DNA of 43,138 bases, taken from Sedimenticola thiotaurini. Its GTDB lineage: Bacteria > Pseudomonadota > Gammaproteobacteria > Chromatiales > Chromatiaceae. Each line of letters begins with the position of its first letter. The stretch's first letter is position 1. The position numbers were made by a program, and so were the translations under genes. A model generated the notes under the pieces. That model was not told where the DNA came from. It did not search any database and saw only the letters and a program-made list of their open reading frames with translations. Where the stretch lies: the NCBI GenBank assembly GCA_011051715.1, contig DRKP01000123.1, positions 1 through 43,138 of the forward strand. The letters run 5' to 3'. Below, in pieces: positions 3,018-13,944 of the stretch.

Positions 3018-3341
3018 ATGAAGAAACCCGACACCCGCACCGCCATGGCACGCCTGATCGGCGAGATCCGGGCCGCCCTCCCGTTCGATGCCCCGGAGAC
3101 CAGGTACTGTGGCGACGACTGCCGCTTCTGCGCGCCGAAGCTGCTGGCCTACCTGGAGTCCGAGCTTGAGGAGTGGGAACAGCGACTGGCCGACGGCGGC
3201 AGACCGGACTTCGGCGACCTCAACCGGCTCGCCCGCAGCGCCCGCCGGATCCACCGGGCGCTGCAGCGGAACGGGCTGCTGCCGGCGTCAGCCGCCGATG
3301 CCGGCCAGGAACACGACCGCCAGACCGAGAACGAGCCATAG
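3018..3341 (+). CDS. Small protein with CxxxCxxC motif, unknown function
   Basis: A predicted 107-aa soluble protein that I do not recognise. Cys31, Cys35 and Cys38 form a CGDDCRFC cluster followed by an acidic amphipathic helix (LESELEEWEQRL) and a basic helix (ARSARRIHRALQR). The cluster could bind a metal or an Fe-S centre. The spacing equals that of radical SAM enzymes, but the protein is far too short for that fold. It starts 28 bp after the GGDEF-EAL gene on the same strand and may be co-transcribed with it. Its last 54 bp overlap the 3' end of the convergent TRAP permease gene. The ATG at 3018 lacks a clear ribosome-binding site, and an in-frame ATG at 3045 is an alternative. Coding potential is supported by the ordered helices and Cys cluster rather than by homology, so confidence is moderate. 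Confidence 0.6.
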   Translation: MKKPDTRTAMARLIGEIRAALPFDAPETRYCGDDCRFCAPKLLAYLESELEEWEQRLADGGRPDFGDLNRLARSARRIHRALQRNGLLPASAADAGQEHDRQTENEP

Positions 3342-5066
3342 CGGCCGCAACCACCACTCTCCGCCACCGATCAGGGCCCGGCTCATGAACCACAGACCCA
3401 GCCCCACCTTGGCGAAGGCGAGCAGGGCCGCCGCCAGCCCCTGCCCGGGGTGGATCAGGGCCGGATTGGCGACGAAGGCCAGTGGCACCACATAGAGCCC
3501 GAGCCCCAGCCGCATCGACTGTCCCGCCACCGGCACCCAGGGCGTCTGCGCCATGCCGGCGGCGATGAACACGGTGCCGCAGACCGGCGGCGTGATGGTG
3601 GAGAGCAGGGCGTACCAGAACACGAACAGGTGGGCATTCAGGGGCGCCATGCCCAGCTCCTGCAGCGCCGGTCCGGCGACCGAGATGCAGATCACATAGG
3701 CGGCCGTGGTTGGCACCTCCATGCCCAGGATCAGGCAGGCCAGGGCGGTGAGCAGCAGCGCGATCCAGAGCTGGCCACCGGAGAGCCCGATGATCACCGA
3801 GGTGACCTTGATCCCCAGCCCGGTCTGGTTGAGCACGCCGATCACCAGGCCGGCGCAGATGATGATGGCGGCGATGGTGGCGATCTGGCTGGCGGCGCCG
3901 ACACAGGCGGCGGTCAGGCGCCGCCGCCAGCGCCCCGGGGAGGGCCGGTAGTCCTCGTCCAGCAGCAGCAACAGGGCCGAGGTGAAGATGGCACCGGCGG
4001 CAGCGTACTGGGGCGTGTAGCCGGTCAGGAACAGCACCCCGAGCAGCACCGAGAACGGCAATACGAAGAAGGGCGCCAGCCGCAGTACCCGCCGTCCCGG
4101 CGGGATCTGCTCCCGAGACATCGGCAGCAGACCGTAGCGGCGGGCGAACAGGTCCACCCCGGCCCAGGCGGCGAAGAAGAACAGGATCGCCGGCAGCAGG
4201 GCGGCCGACATCACCTCGGTATAGGAGATGCGCAGCAGCTCCATCATCACGAAGGCACCGGCCCCCATCAGCGGCGGCATGATCTGCCCCCCGCTGGAAG
4301 CCACCGCCTCCACCGCCGCGGCGAAACCGGGTGGGTAGCCGAGCCGCTTCATCACCGGCAGGGTGATGGCGCCGGTGGAGGCGACATTGGCCGAGGCGGA
4401 GCCGGAGATGGAACCGAAGAAGGCGGACGAGAGCACCGACACCTTGGCCGCGCCGGCGCGGAACCGGCCGGCCAGCCGGATGGCCAGGGCCATGAACGCC
4501 TCCCCTCCCTCGCCGGCGCCGATGAAGGCGCCGAGGATGACGAACACCGCCACCACGTTGACCGAGACCCCGGTGAGAGGGCCCCAGATCCCCCCCTCGG
4601 CGATGGTCAGGGTACCGAGAAAACTGCCCAGGGGCAGGCCGGGGTGACCGAACTGGCCCGGCAGGTACTGCCCCAGCAGACCATAGGAGAGGGCGATCAC
4701 CGCGACGATCGGCAGCGCCAGCTTGATCGCCCGGCGGGCCATCTCCAGCACCACCAGGATGAGGCCGATCCCGAGCAGGTACTGTCCCGGCCCTTCCAGA
4801 TAGCCGTACTGCTCCACCAGCTGATCACGGTTGAAGGCGATGTAGAGACTGGCGAAGATGCCGAAGGCCCCGATCAGCCAGCTCAGCAGACGCCGCGATG
4901 GCGGGCCGCCGACCCCCACCCAGAACACCCAGGGCAGGGCCAGCGCCAGGTGCAGCGGGCGGCTGACCAGGTTCGGGATCAGGCCGCTGAAGACCAGGTA
5001 GAGATGGAAGCCGACGCTGGCTGTTGCCAGGGCGACGACGGCACTGCGAACGGGTGAGAAGGGCAC
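3288..5066 (-). CDS. TRAP transporter fused permease (TAXI type)
   Basis: Fused small (4TM, DctQ-like) and large (12TM, DctM-like) TRAP permease, 592 aa, driving ion-coupled uptake of a substrate delivered by a TAXI binding protein. Hydrophobic segments run through the whole protein. The DctM-like core contains ASANVASTGAITLPVM and GGQIMPPLMGAGAFVMMELL, typical of the family's membrane re-entrant regions, and a later copy with EVPTTAAYVICISVAGPAL. The start at 5066 is GTG with a poor ribosome-binding site. The gene lies 46 bp downstream of the binding-protein gene at 5113-6087, with a strong stem-loop between them, so the two form one transport operon. The length is slightly short compared with many fused TRAP permeases. 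Its 3' end overlaps the small Cys-motif gene on the other strand. The substrate cannot be deduced. Confidence 0.92.
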   Translation of the reverse strand: MPFSPVRSAVVALATASVGFHLYLVFSGLIPNLVSRPLHLALALPWVFWVGVGGPPSRRLLSWLIGAFGIFASLYIAFNRDQLVEQYGYLEGPGQYLLGIGLILVVLEMARRAIKLALPIVAVIALSYGLLGQYLPGQFGHPGLPLGSFLGTLTIAEGGIWGPLTGVSVNVVAVFVILGAFIGAGEGGEAFMALAIRLAGRFRAGAAKVSVLSSAFFGSISGSASANVASTGAITLPVMKRLGYPPGFAAAVEAVASSGGQIMPPLMGAGAFVMMELLRISYTEVMSAALLPAILFFFAAWAGVDLFARRYGLLPMSREQIPPGRRVLRLAPFFVLPFSVLLGVLFLTGYTPQYAAAGAIFTSALLLLLDEDYRPSPGRWRRRLTAACVGAASQIATIAAIIICAGLVIGVLNQTGLGIKVTSVIIGLSGGQLWIALLLTALACLILGMEVPTTAAYVICISVAGPALQELGMAPLNAHLFVFWYALLSTITPPVCGTVFIAAGMAQTPWVPVAGQSMRLGLGLYVVPLAFVANPALIHPGQGLAAALLAFAKVGLGLWFMSRALIGGGEWWLRPLWLVLGLAVVFLAGIGG

Positions 5067-5101: not shown

Positions 5102-5112
5102 CCGCTGTGACG

Positions 5113-6087
5113 TTACTGCAGCGATTCCGGGATCTTTACGCCCCGCTCCCGGTAGTAGCGCAACGCCCCCGGATGCAGCTTCGCACCCAGGGTCTTCAGT
5201 TCCTCGAAGGTGACCGCGTTCCACCAGGGGTTGGCCTCGCCCAGGGCCTGCTTCTGCTCCCAGAACGCCCTGGTCAGGCGATAGGCGGTGTCGTCGTCCA
5301 TGGCGGTGGTGGTGTAGGCCCCCACCGGCAGCGAGGTGGTGACCACGTCGTAATCCACCCCGGGGTAGGTACCGGCCGGGATCACCAGGCGGGTGCGGCC
5401 GGTCTTCTTCACCTGTTCGTCGGTCATGCTCAGCAGACGGATCGGCGTACCCGCCGCGGCCTCGATCACATTTGGCGCCGGATAGGAGCCGGCGGTGGCG
5501 AAACCGTCGATCTGGCCGTTCTTGAGTGCCGCGACCGCCGCGTTCAGCTCCACGTCGACCAGGTCCACCTTGCCCTCCAGTCCGAACAGCTTGAGGTACT
5601 TGGCCGCCTCGCGGGCGCCGAACGAGCCCTTGCCGATGAGAAAGCGCTTGCCGGCCAGGTCGGCGAAGCGGTCGATGCCGGCATCGGCCCGCACCACCAG
5701 GTGCATGGTCAGGGAGGGGATGACGAAGAGGGAGCGGATCTCCTGATAGCGGGGACTGGCATCCTTGAACATCTTCTTGCCGGCCTGGGCCAGCCGGATC
5801 AGCACCGGTGGTGTGGTGAAGACGTAGTTGCCGCTGCGGTTGGCCACCTCCTTCACGTTCTGGACCGAACCCTGGCTCTCCTCCACGGTCACGATCATGT
5901 CGCCACCGGTGGCGCGCTTGACCGCCTCGGCGATCTGCACCGCCATCTGGTAGTAGGAGGAGGTGGACTTGGCCGACTTGTAGGTGACGCGCGTCCCGGC
6001 GGAGGCGGCGGTCACCACCAGCAGTGAAGAGAGGGCGGCCAGCAGCAGGCCGCGCACCAGGTTGCGACGGGATCTTGAGTGGTTCAT
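5113..6087 (-). CDS. TAXI-family TRAP solute-binding protein (divergent)
   Basis: Exported binding protein, 324 aa, first gene of the TRAP operon. Residues 1 to about 30 form a signal peptide: an Arg-rich start, LLLAALSSLLVV and an ASAG cleavage site. The protein keeps the TAXI layout: an N-terminal YYQMAVQIAEAVKR helix, ESQGSVQNVKEV, DLAGKRFLIGKGSFG, ALKNGQIDGFATAGSYPAP and the C-terminal LHPGALRYYRERG. The first lobe has KSAKSTSSYYQ in place of the glycine-rich GTGGxGGTYYP motif seen in the TAXI protein at position 5, so the two proteins probably bind different ligands. The ATG at 6087 is the natural start for the signal peptide. The fused permease gene follows 46 bp downstream. Confidence 0.9.
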   Translation of the reverse strand: MNHSRSRRNLVRGLLLAALSSLLVVTAASAGTRVTYKSAKSTSSYYQMAVQIAEAVKRATGGDMIVTVEESQGSVQNVKEVANRSGNYVFTTPPVLIRLAQAGKKMFKDASPRYQEIRSLFVIPSLTMHLVVRADAGIDRFADLAGKRFLIGKGSFGAREAAKYLKLFGLEGKVDLVDVELNAAVAALKNGQIDGFATAGSYPAPNVIEAAAGTPIRLLSMTDEQVKKTGRTRLVIPAGTYPGVDYDVVTTSLPVGAYTTTAMDDDTAYRLTRAFWEQKQALGEANPWWNAVTFEELKTLGAKLHPGALRYYRERGVKIPESLQ

Positions 6088-6178
6088 GGCATCGATGGTC
6101 CGTTGTGGTTCCGGATGGATCCGCAGATCCTACAACAGATCCACCACTCCATGCTGCCCCCGATTCACAGCACGCCTG

Positions 6179-7618
6179 TCACTGGAGATATTCGCGCAAC
6201 CGCTCCGCCATCGCCTGGGGGGTGATGCCGTGGGCGAACTTGGTGATGAAACGCCCGTCCGGACCGATCAGGTAGACGCTGGCGGTATGGTCCATCAGGT
6301 AGAGTTCCGGATCGCCCCCCTCCTCCACCACCTTCTCGTACCGCACCCGGTACTCCTTCGCCAGCTTCTCGGTCATCGCCTTGCTGCCCACCAGGCCGAT
6401 CAGGCGATCGTTGAAGAACGGCACGTACTTGGCCATCTTCTCCACGGTATCGCGCTCCGGATCGATGGTGATGAAGTAGGGCTGTATCCGGTCCGCCAGC
6501 GGGCCGAGCTGGTCCAGCGCCAGCGACATGGTCTGCAGCGAGGTGGGGCAGATGTCCGGACAGTAGGTGTAGCCGAAATAGAGCAGGCTGTAGTGGCCCA
6601 GGAGGTCCTCTTCGGTCACCAGCCGGCCGTTGTGGTCGGTGAGCATGAAGCGGCCACCGATGGTCTCGCCGGGCTGCAGCTCGTCGGCGGCCCCGGCCTG
6701 GGCGGCGGCCGCCTCCAGGATCGGCTGCTCGGCGTTGACGCACTTGCGGATCACGTCGGTATTGTGGCGCATCAGCTGATCATAGAGCTGCGGACCCGGT
6801 TCCAGCCCCAGGCCGAAGCTGTCCAGTTCCCCGACGTTGATGCCGGTGCCGCTGGTGAGCAGTTCCAGCTCGGGGGTGGGCAGCCCCTTCTCGGTCAGCA
6901 GGCAGTTGACCTGTCCGTCACGAATGGCCGCCCGCGCCTGCAGCAGCCTGACCGCATCCACCGGCTGCGGCGGCAGGGGTGAGAGGACCATCCTCGTCTT
7001 CAGTGCATAGGCCTGCTCGAAATACTGTTGGGTGTCGTAGTAGAGGATCACCGCACCGCCCTTCATGCCGCGATAGCCGTACTCCAGCATCCGGTCCATC
7101 TCCGCGGCCTGGGCGAACACCTTGTCCCGGTTGCGGCGGTACAGGTGGGCACGTCCGGGATCGGCGGCCATCAGTACCCGGGTCAGTTCGTCGATCATCA
7201 TCAGGCCGTTGCGGCTGTCCAGCCAGAAGAAGGGATCCAGCCGGTCGTCCCTCTCCCGGTCGGGCAGCACCTTCAGTGCCGGCCGGTCCAGCAGGGCGAC
7301 CACGTGCCTGTCCGGCAGCTCCTGCCGCAGGGGTTCCACCAGGAACGCCTCCAGCTCCGGTCCCACCCAGACCACCAGGTTGGCCTCCTGCAGCTGCTTC
7401 TTCTGCGCCTCGCTCAACTGGTAACCATAGGGTGTCTCGTCACCATCGAGCAGCAGCACCGGCGACTCCACTCCCTGCATCAGCGCGGCCAGGATCGAGT
7501 GCACCGGCCGGATGCTCGCCACCACCTTGAACTCCCCCGCCGGCGACGCTACAGGGACGAGAACTAGGAGAAACAGGATGGCGGCCAGGCAGCGGCCGCT
7601 GCAGGAATGTAGTTTCAT
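6179..7618 (-). CDS. Exported fusion: ZnuA-like binding domain plus SCO/SenC domain
   Basis: A two-domain exported protein, 479 aa from ATG 7618; an in-frame GTG at 7630 is possible. After a signal peptide (to about residue 27), residues 30-300 resemble cluster A-I metal-binding proteins such as ZnuA: VVASIRPVHSIL, LSEAQKKQLQEANLVVWVG, a WLD block and a YFEQAYAL block. Only His40 of the usual zinc ligands remains. The DPHIWLD His is Phe (DPFFWLD), the later HDAYGYF-type His is Tyr (YYDTQQYF), and the PHHY site is PYGY. Residues about 315-478 are a SCO1/SenC/PrrC thioredoxin-like domain with CPDIC (Cys353, Cys357) and His444, the complete copper-binding set. SCO proteins deliver copper to the CuA site of cytochrome oxidase or act as thiol reductases. 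The binding half may carry another metal, a metal-chaperone complex or no metal. It lies just after the small exported protein at 7634-7990. Confidence 0.85.
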   Translation of the reverse strand: MKLHSCSGRCLAAILFLLVLVPVASPAGEFKVVASIRPVHSILAALMQGVESPVLLLDGDETPYGYQLSEAQKKQLQEANLVVWVGPELEAFLVEPLRQELPDRHVVALLDRPALKVLPDRERDDRLDPFFWLDSRNGLMMIDELTRVLMAADPGRAHLYRRNRDKVFAQAAEMDRMLEYGYRGMKGGAVILYYDTQQYFEQAYALKTRMVLSPLPPQPVDAVRLLQARAAIRDGQVNCLLTEKGLPTPELELLTSGTGINVGELDSFGLGLEPGPQLYDQLMRHNTDVIRKCVNAEQPILEAAAAQAGAADELQPGETIGGRFMLTDHNGRLVTEEDLLGHYSLLYFGYTYCPDICPTSLQTMSLALDQLGPLADRIQPYFITIDPERDTVEKMAKYVPFFNDRLIGLVGSKAMTEKLAKEYRVRYEKVVEEGGDPELYLMDHTASVYLIGPDGRFITKFAHGITPQAMAERLREYLQ

Positions 7619-7633
7619 GATTGGAGTCACCCG

Positions 7634-7990
7634 TTACTGTTCGTTTATGGATCTGCCGAAGGCACGCTCGAGCACCCGGAGCGCCTCGCCCACCCGCTGG
7701 TCGAAGGCCGCCTTGTCGGGACAGTCCGACTTCTCGGCGATGAAGCGGAGGAAGGATTCGTTGGTGGCATCGTCGAACCCCTGTCCCAGGGCGCGGCGCC
7801 TGGGCAGTACCTCCACCAGGGCCCGTTTCATGCGCCGGGTCTGATCCAGGTAACGGCAGTGCAGGGCGATGCCGTTGAGTTCGCCCAGCCCCCCGATCGC
7901 CCGGTACTGGTCGTCGGTGATCGCGCTGGCGGCCCCGGCCCGGAGAAGGCACACCACCACTCCGACACTGATCGCTGCTGTTGGTTTCAT
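7634..7990 (-). CDS. Small exported protein, unknown function
   Basis: A 118-aa protein with a signal peptide (about residues 1-23, ending GAASA before ITDDQY). I do not recognise the family. The mature part is mostly helical and charged and has two Cys (LHCRYLD and SDCPDK), which could form a disulfide bond. The ATG at 7990 is chosen because GGGAGG lies 6-10 bases upstream; a longer frame to 8032 is open but lacks this signal and would bury the signal peptide. The gene ends 15 bp before the ZnuA-like/SCO fusion gene and is probably transcribed with it, which suggests, without proof, a role in the same periplasmic metal or redox process. Confidence 0.75.
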   Translation of the reverse strand: MKPTAAISVGVVVCLLRAGAASAITDDQYRAIGGLGELNGIALHCRYLDQTRRMKRALVEVLPRRRALGQGFDDATNESFLRFIAEKSDCPDKAAFDQRVGEALRVLERAFGRSINEQ

Positions 7991-8129
7991 GGTCCTCCCG
8001 AACGAGTCGTGCAGGGTTGCTTCGGCAGCCACCGATTGTAGGGGAGCCGGGGGGAATGTGAACTGTTTCAGATCAAATCGGTGTCGCTGGCGGGTGGCCC
8101 GCCAGGGAATCCGAACCAGCCCGTTGTTT

Positions 8130-13254: not shown

Positions 13255-13944
13255 TCACGGCTTGTGCTGATCACAGGAGAGAAACGACCGGGTCCCGGGG
13301 GTGCTCACATAGGAGACCAGGCAGGTGGTGGCCGCGGCGGTGTCCTCGATCTTGCGCACCACCAGGTCACCCTCTTTCAGGGAGGCGGTCTGGTAGAGCC
13401 CGCCCTTGCCGTCGGGGATGGAGTCGTAGCAGGCCACCGACGGACTGGTTCCCTTGGTCCTGACGTAGGCCACCAGGCAGATCTTGTTGTTGCCCCTGTC
13501 CAGGATCTTGCGGATGTCGAGATCACCCTCGCGCAGGTGCCCCGACTCCACCATGTTGTCCTTGGTGCGCTGGGTATTGGGATAGCAGGTCACCGCCGGC
13601 GAGGTCCCCGGCGTGGAGACGTAGGCGACCAGGCAGTACATGTTGTTCTTGGTGTCGTCCAGTTTCCGGATCACCAGGTCGTCCACCTTGAGATGACCGA
13701 CCTGGAACAGGCTGGCGCCGAACCCCTCCGCCGCGTGGTAGCAGCGCACCACCGGGCTGGTCCCCTTGGTCTGGACATAGAAGGCGAGGCAGGTCCGGTT
13801 GCTGCCCAGATCGGTGATGTTCCTGACCACCAGGTTGTGCTCCTTCATCTCACCGGTCTGAACCAGCAGCGACGACTTGTACTCTCCCGCCTGCAGCAGC
13901 AGCGGCAGCACCAGTACCGCGAACGCGAACCATGCTCTCATCAT
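13255..13944 (-). CDS. Secreted protein of four 52-residue tandem repeats
   Basis: A 229-aa protein of unknown function with a signal peptide (about residues 1-20, ending LLQAG). The mature part is four tandem repeats with an exact 52-residue period, the last one truncated after its second Cys. Each unit reads roughly GHLKEGDLVIRKIxD, a short polar segment, then CLVAYVSTPGTSPxVxC. Two Cys, 16 residues apart, occur in every repeat, so one disulfide per unit in an oxidised periplasmic or outer environment is likely. Alternating hydrophobic residues suggest a beta fold such as a propeller or solenoid. The gene lies on the same strand as, and 103 bp upstream of, the sulfur globule-like gene, but the gap holds a promoter-like sequence, so co-transcription is uncertain. 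I know no name for this family. Confidence 0.85.
   Translation of the reverse strand: MMRAWFAFAVLVLPLLLQAGEYKSSLLVQTGEMKEHNLVVRNITDLGSNRTCLAFYVQTKGTSPVVRCYHAAEGFGASLFQVGHLKVDDLVIRKLDDTKNNMYCLVAYVSTPGTSPAVTCYPNTQRTKDNMVESGHLREGDLDIRKILDRGNNKICLVAYVRTKGTSPSVACYDSIPDGKGGLYQTASLKEGDLVVRKIEDTAAATTCLVSYVSTPGTRSFLSCDQHKP

Follow-up and report, generated by a model that had tools for sequence, protein, structure and literature searches.

Clade II N2O reducers are a sink for a greenhouse gas, and the assembly of the CuA centre of nitrous oxide reductase (NosZ) is less settled than that of CuZ. SCO proteins, which carry a CxxxC motif and a distal histidine in the SCO1/SenC domain, classically serve CuA of cytochrome oxidase; described examples are SenC2 of Paracoccus denitrificans and Blr1131 (PDB 4wbj and 4txo), which we take to be ScoI of Bradyrhizobium. 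The cluster A-I binding proteins of the ZnuA type (PF01297; PDB 2xh8 and 2osv) have a C-terminal cysteine pair and three aligned histidines that we take to be the zinc ligands. Periplasmic copper supply to NosZ involves NosL, NosDFY and PCuAC. In the excerpts of PMC7558416 used here, deletion of senC2 (SCO type), of pcuC or of a gene of unknown function in Paracoccus lowers N2O reduction at low copper, and the assembly of NosZ CuA is described as closer to that of cytochrome oxidase, with NosL serving CuZ. An excerpt of PMC6530538 reports that loss of NosL in copper-limited Paracoccus empties CuA as well as CuZ; on this showing, a separate loader for CuA is not a necessity in every case. For haloarchaea, a part of PMC11218638 cites previous studies for an SCO step in the maturation of NosZ CuA and states that evidence for such a role of the SCO induced in that study is lacking. 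A precedent for fused accessory proteins, with different domains, is provided by the NosB–NosL fusions of some clade II nos clusters, as described in part of PMC9697520.

Analysis of positions 1 to 43,138 of contig DRKP01000123.1 of Sedimenticola thiotaurini (GCA_011051715.1; forward strand; 43,138 nucleotides, the whole stretch being called the window below) revealed a gene that joins two of these families. The original prediction had placed a fusion of a ZnuA-like and an SCO domain at 6179–7618, and this is borne out by a single minus-strand frame that stays open for 479 codons and contains both Pfam domains above their cut-offs (Table 1); the plus-strand reading of the same segment is broken by stops. 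Profile searches matched the ZnuA-like domain to the ZnuA structure 2xh8 (E 8.7e-34) over the whole domain and the SCO domain to 4wbj (E 5.9e-51). The window fusion did not reach the NCBIfam ZnuA equivalog cut-off (100.6 bits versus 268), and an AlphaFold model of the fusion (four rows) had a pLDDT of 46.8, too poor for use. The protein differs from SCO1/SenC chaperones in the ZnuA-like domain at its N-terminus and in having a small partner of its own. Unlike ZnuA, it has its zinc histidines replaced, an SCO domain attached and no ABC partner at the locus: no ABC permease or ATPase was found among the flanking genes with Pfam and NCBIfam models, as had been anticipated. The genes that follow downstream are of the TRAP type instead, one for a TAXI-type binding protein and one for a fused permease.

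Table 1. Features of the fusion gene, its upstream partner and the preceding region in the window
Feature	Position	Strand	Remark
ZnuA-like/SCO fusion gene, 479 aa	6179..7618	-	ATG at 7618, stop 6181–6179
Hydrophobic N-terminal stretch, probable Sec signal peptide, residues about 1–27	7538..7618	-	judged from sequence
ZnuA-like (PF01297) domain, residues 32–293	6740..7525	-	Pfam ZnuA 113.4 bits, cut-off 29
Tyr64, replacing first ZnuA zinc His	7427..7429	-	His in 3/48 fusions, 28/28 ordinary ZnuA rows
Phe130, replacing second zinc His	7229..7231	-	His in 2/48 fusions, 28/28 ordinary ZnuA rows
Tyr194, replacing third zinc His	7037..7039	-	His in 12/48 fusions, 28/28 ordinary ZnuA rows
Cys239, first of ZnuA-type Cys pair	6902..6904	-	Cys in 48/48 fusions
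Cys293, second of ZnuA-type Cys pair	6740..6742	-	Cys in 48/48 fusions
SCO1/SenC (PF02630) domain, residues 321–457	6248..6658	-	Pfam SCO1-SenC 162.8 bits, cut-off 22.8
SCO CxxxC motif, Cys353–Cys357	6548..6562	-	48/48 fusions
SCO copper-ligand His444	6287..6289	-	47/47 readable fusions; one ORF truncated there
118-aa exported two-Cys protein (Cys45, Cys90), upstream partner	7634..7990	-	predicted four-helix bundle
Weak FNR/DNR-like site, 2 mismatches	8063..8076	-	73 bases upstream of small gene's ATG

The fusion is not confined to the window. A first search of 55 genomes, its own included, returned seven further full-length fusions with 43–57% identity, and three came from scanning genome contigs, in Chromatiaceae UWMA-0197 and two Sedimenticola MAGs. 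Among 49 chosen loci of the module, by which we mean the fusion gene and its small upstream partner, there are 48 uninterrupted fusion ORFs of more than 400 aa, window included; two of these (L181 and L191) end at contig edges, and the 49th locus (L170) is truncated too far to be included. Not in this set are one of the three fusions from the contig scan (L008), whose contig appears, by its length and match positions, to be that of L169; the split genes found in G020; loci where no SBP (ZnuA-like) domain is adjacent; the contig-end loci L131 and L202; and the later-found L212 and L214. The original prediction had proposed a search for the same domain order in other genomes and had named a frameshift joining two genes as a possible artefact. 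The order recurs in all 48 collected ORFs, which rules out the artefact and indicates that the fusion is more than chance.

In one genome (G020; L039:7887–9319) the fusion is present as two overlapping ORFs. We considered whether this split is ancestral and dropped the idea: four genomes of the same genus have uninterrupted genes with SBP domains 91–95% alike, and the tree places G020 among them, so the split is probably a recent frameshift or an assembly error. Plasmid records gave 499 matches, none of which covered 80% of the query, and the best 10 of the 499 lay in the ZnuA range. No description of the fusion or of the nosZ link described below was found in open-access titles and abstract openings, a scope that leaves subscription papers mostly outside.

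In the SCO half, the full Cys-Cys-His copper set that had been predicted is present throughout (Cys353 and Cys357 in every fusion, His444 in every readable one). In a tree, the 57 rows of module SCO domains are separated from 12 other SCO rows by a branch with a support of 100; two SCO genes enter this tree twice under different loci, and the 12 other rows represent 11 distinct genes. The ZnuA-like half, for which Tyr64, Phe130 and Tyr194 were placed by alignment with ZnuA structures, has all three zinc histidines replaced in the window. The picture of an altered ZnuA-type domain on an intact SCO domain therefore stands, as does the claimed loss of zinc ligands, with one correction: His40, which had been read as the single retained ligand, occurs in 24 of the 28 ordinary ZnuA rows, in which the three zinc histidines are always intact, and it is thus not a remnant ligand. 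Across the 48 fusions, none of the zinc histidines is kept in 34, one in 12, two in one and three in one. The fusion with all three belongs to G427 (L184, ORF 1378–2829), and none of the other four collected fusions of its genus has two or three.

The ordinary ZnuA rows represent 27 distinct genes (L045 equals L164, and the duplicate was dropped for the tree); L142, at first counted among them, was moved to the new group. A quick tree calculated without the three zinc columns separated 51 SBP domains of the new group from the 27 ordinary ZnuAs with a branch support of 100. The new group also has its own signature, consisting of Lys116 (51/51 versus 1/27 in ordinary ZnuAs), Arg164 (49/51 versus 0/27), Tyr182 (50/51 versus 0/27) and Gln202 (50/51 versus 1/27), together with a new histidine, His158 (46/51 versus 2/27). 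No newly conserved cysteine was found in the group, and the Met47 and Met283 columns are partly common to ZnuA. Because these domains form a separate branch with conserved residues of their own, the ZnuA-like half seems to have changed its function rather than merely decayed.

The original prediction had also pointed to an exported protein with two cysteines before the fusion, and this gene has a signal-like N-terminus and ends fifteen bases upstream of the fusion. What had not been foreseen is its constancy, nor the link to clade II NosZ. The small gene lies upstream on the same strand, with a gap of at most 193 bases, in 48/48 fusion loci; in 18 of these the two genes overlap by four bases. 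Cys45 and Cys90 are present at all 49 loci. No Pfam or NCBIfam family matched the small protein at E values up to 1. The small protein was modelled as a four-helix bundle (pLDDT 84.6), which gave 17 PDB matches at E up to 10 and none at 0.001. In two genomes of different families the small protein is fused to SCO in one ORF (G351, L134:9377–10270, 297 aa; G402, L199:2527–3384, 285 aa), thus suggesting that it cooperates directly with the SCO domain. In six others (G047, G158, G023, G435, G466 and G855) the small gene precedes an SCO gene without an intervening SBP domain. G047 and G351 keep a new-group SBP elsewhere in the genome, and no SBP match was found at 1e-30 in G158, G023, G435 and G466. 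G402 has a ZnuA-like match of ordinary strength only (173.7 bits; C1:3786314–3787138), about 13 kb from nosZ.

Comparison of genome samples revealed that the small gene accompanies clade II NosZ, with NosZ clades assigned by bits per position. In a family sample of 146 genomes, clade II NosZ is present in 41 of the 47 small-gene carriers (the gene of one, G014, being interrupted by a contig end) and in 19 of the 99 non-carriers (Fisher 2e-15). These 60 genomes comprise 56 over the cut-off and four partial matches, and a strict count without the latter leaves the result unchanged (40/47 versus 16/99). As genomes within a genus can be almost identical and then do not count as independent, kinship was handled at the genus level, without a species tree, where the association is 18/20 versus 9/41 (p 7e-7). 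In a class sample of 369 genomes, for which only matches over the cut-off were used (21 genomes with clade II NosZ), 10 of 11 strong carriers and 11 of 358 other genomes have clade II NosZ (p 3e-13); two of the non-carriers (G100 and G164) have partial NosZ matches that look clade II. G165 (E 8.5e-4, 20.4 bits) was taken as a chance match to the small gene and excluded from this count. A phylum sample of 398 genomes added three carriers, two outside the class (G590 and G608) and one inside (G855), all with NosZ over the clade II cut-off.

With two carriers (G000 and G007) common to the family and class samples, the combined set is 59 carrier genomes, of which 52 have clade II NosZ. The remainder are G006 (99% complete) and six genomes that are 70–87% complete (G436, G456, G477, G480, G498 and G240); in G240 the module occurs with clade I-type NosZ only. 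In three families of the class sample the small gene is found in a genome with clade II NosZ (G158, G282 and G186), and relatives with clade I-type NosZ only (G368; G170 and G378; G392) lack it. The small gene is missing from 19/60 (family) and 11/21 (class) genomes with clade II NosZ and is therefore not required by every such enzyme. Some of these absences reflect draft gaps, since in G011, among the 19, an SCO fragment that resembles the fusion lies where a contig begins.

The genes are also frequently adjacent. Models for NosD, NosL and NosZ, together with a ferredoxin model of the NapH type that also scored over cut-off, served to identify the genes of nos clusters; the NapG-type ferredoxin model stayed below its cut-off, and NosB was deduced from a motif described in the excerpt of PMC9697520. 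The small gene lies less than 10 kb from nosZ in 16 of the 41 family genomes with both, across six genera. In fourteen of these 16, small gene, fusion and nosZ follow one another on one strand, and nosZ comes about 1.8 kb later (G020, with its split fusion, among them); G016 has the module and nosZ in divergent orientation, and the module of G010 sits at the far end of the cluster. The other 25 are unlinked, five having both on the same contig more than 1 Mb apart and 20 on different contigs. Elsewhere, the nos cluster of G186, G282 and G855 has the module after it, and in G135 and G251 the small gene shares a contig with nosZ at a distance of about 18 kb. NosL, NosDFY and PCuAC are neighbours of the module in part of the genomes; the module proteins come from different families. 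G006 has a nosY–small gene–fusion arrangement and lacks NosZ, which looks like the leftover of a nos cluster.

Module and nosZ lie on different contigs in the window's own genome, the nos cluster being located on contig C66. Beyond nosY, this contig contains an unknown ORF of 187 aa in which the motif CDLRAGPC occurs, a separate SCO gene and a PCuAC gene (L070:1438–3188). The SCO and PCuAC make up a second copper-chaperone set in this genome, so the window module is not the sole candidate for its NosZ.

We propose that the module acts in the periplasm to mature clade II (Sec-exported) NosZ, most likely its CuA centre, and give this reading a probability of about two in three. CuA is inferred as the target from the SCO-type precedents and from the resemblance of NosZ CuA assembly to that of cytochrome oxidase. 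A mechanism is proposed where the SCO half, with its Cys-x3-Cys motif and histidine, would bind copper or reduce the two CuA cysteines, while the ZnuA-derived half, having given up its zinc site in most members, would hold a protein partner near it; this partner could be apo-NosZ, the small protein or a donor chaperone. The small four-helix protein with its two cysteines may act directly with the SCO domain. A more detailed scheme is a dedicated CuA-loading complex in which the ZnuA-derived domain docks apo-NosZ, the SCO domain reduces and fills CuA, and the small protein is a copper or thiol partner; we regard this as tentative and rather doubtful. The proposal provides two concrete candidate genes for NosZ maturation, one of them without a Pfam or NCBIfam match, and a putative case of a binding protein, its metal site mostly lost, that was recruited beside a copper chaperone.

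The same genes could instead encode a general SCO-type assembly factor for CuA of cytochrome c oxidase, the classical SCO client, with the nosZ link reflecting lifestyle. Separation of the module from nosZ in 25 of the 41 family genomes with both fits such a factor; however, the proximity of module and nosZ in six of the family's genera, its position after nos clusters in G186, G282 and G855, and its absence from relatives with clade I-type NosZ only in three families make this explanation unlikely. The module could also aid NosZ at another step and carry no copper, by reducing disulfides of NosL, PCuAC or NosZ itself, or c-type cytochromes. The two invariant cysteines of the small protein point in this direction, as does the company of thiol-redox genes: among the neighbourhoods annotated for such genes, the module of G590 follows DsbA- and DsbB-type genes, while the lone SBP gene of G047 follows DsbA-type and DsbD-type genes. 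These neighbours fit copper loading and cysteine reduction alike, but the invariant copper histidine of the SCO domain (47/47) would be superfluous in a pure thiol reductase, and we consider a role confined to thiols rather unlikely.

A further alternative is that the ZnuA half still binds metal, at the old site or a remodelled one, and that the protein senses or scavenges zinc or copper. The three histidines of the G427 fusion and the two of one other fusion are consistent with this, as is the nearly invariant His40, and the newly conserved His158 adds to its weight. Yet 34 of the 48 fusions have none of the zinc histidines, no new cysteine has become conserved, the methionine columns 47 and 283 are shared in part with ZnuA, and the window gene has no neighbouring ABC permease, so that a metal-binding role appears very unlikely.

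Several minor observations were made in the window and at related loci. In the window, two related binding proteins are encoded on opposite strands (5–1018, plus; 5113–6087, minus, the second TAXI-type), and the fused TRAP permease (3288–5066, minus) sits between them. An exported-looking 229-aa protein (13255–13944, minus) appears to consist of four imperfect repeats of about 48 aa with a cysteine pair in each, and matches no Pfam family above its cut-off. In one lineage, conserved unknown genes precede the small gene (L030:3443–7415, with parts in L007, L009 and L179), one of which resembles a radical SAM protein by eye. Two similar transposase-like ORFs, also recognized by eye, are found near the nosY–small gene–fusion arrangement of G006 (L036 / L084). 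Inside a nos cluster, two related 342-aa ORFs with the same N-terminus (L032:3489–4517 and 5106–6134) are perhaps a duplicated mobile element.

The region before the small gene was scored against what we take to be an FNR/DNR-like consensus. The site in the window is not significant alone, as about ten equally good sites occur there. Across the 49 loci, an exact palindrome lies upstream of the small gene in six, against 0.02 expected from two-base block shuffles, but four of these six come from one genus and three of the four are near-identical.
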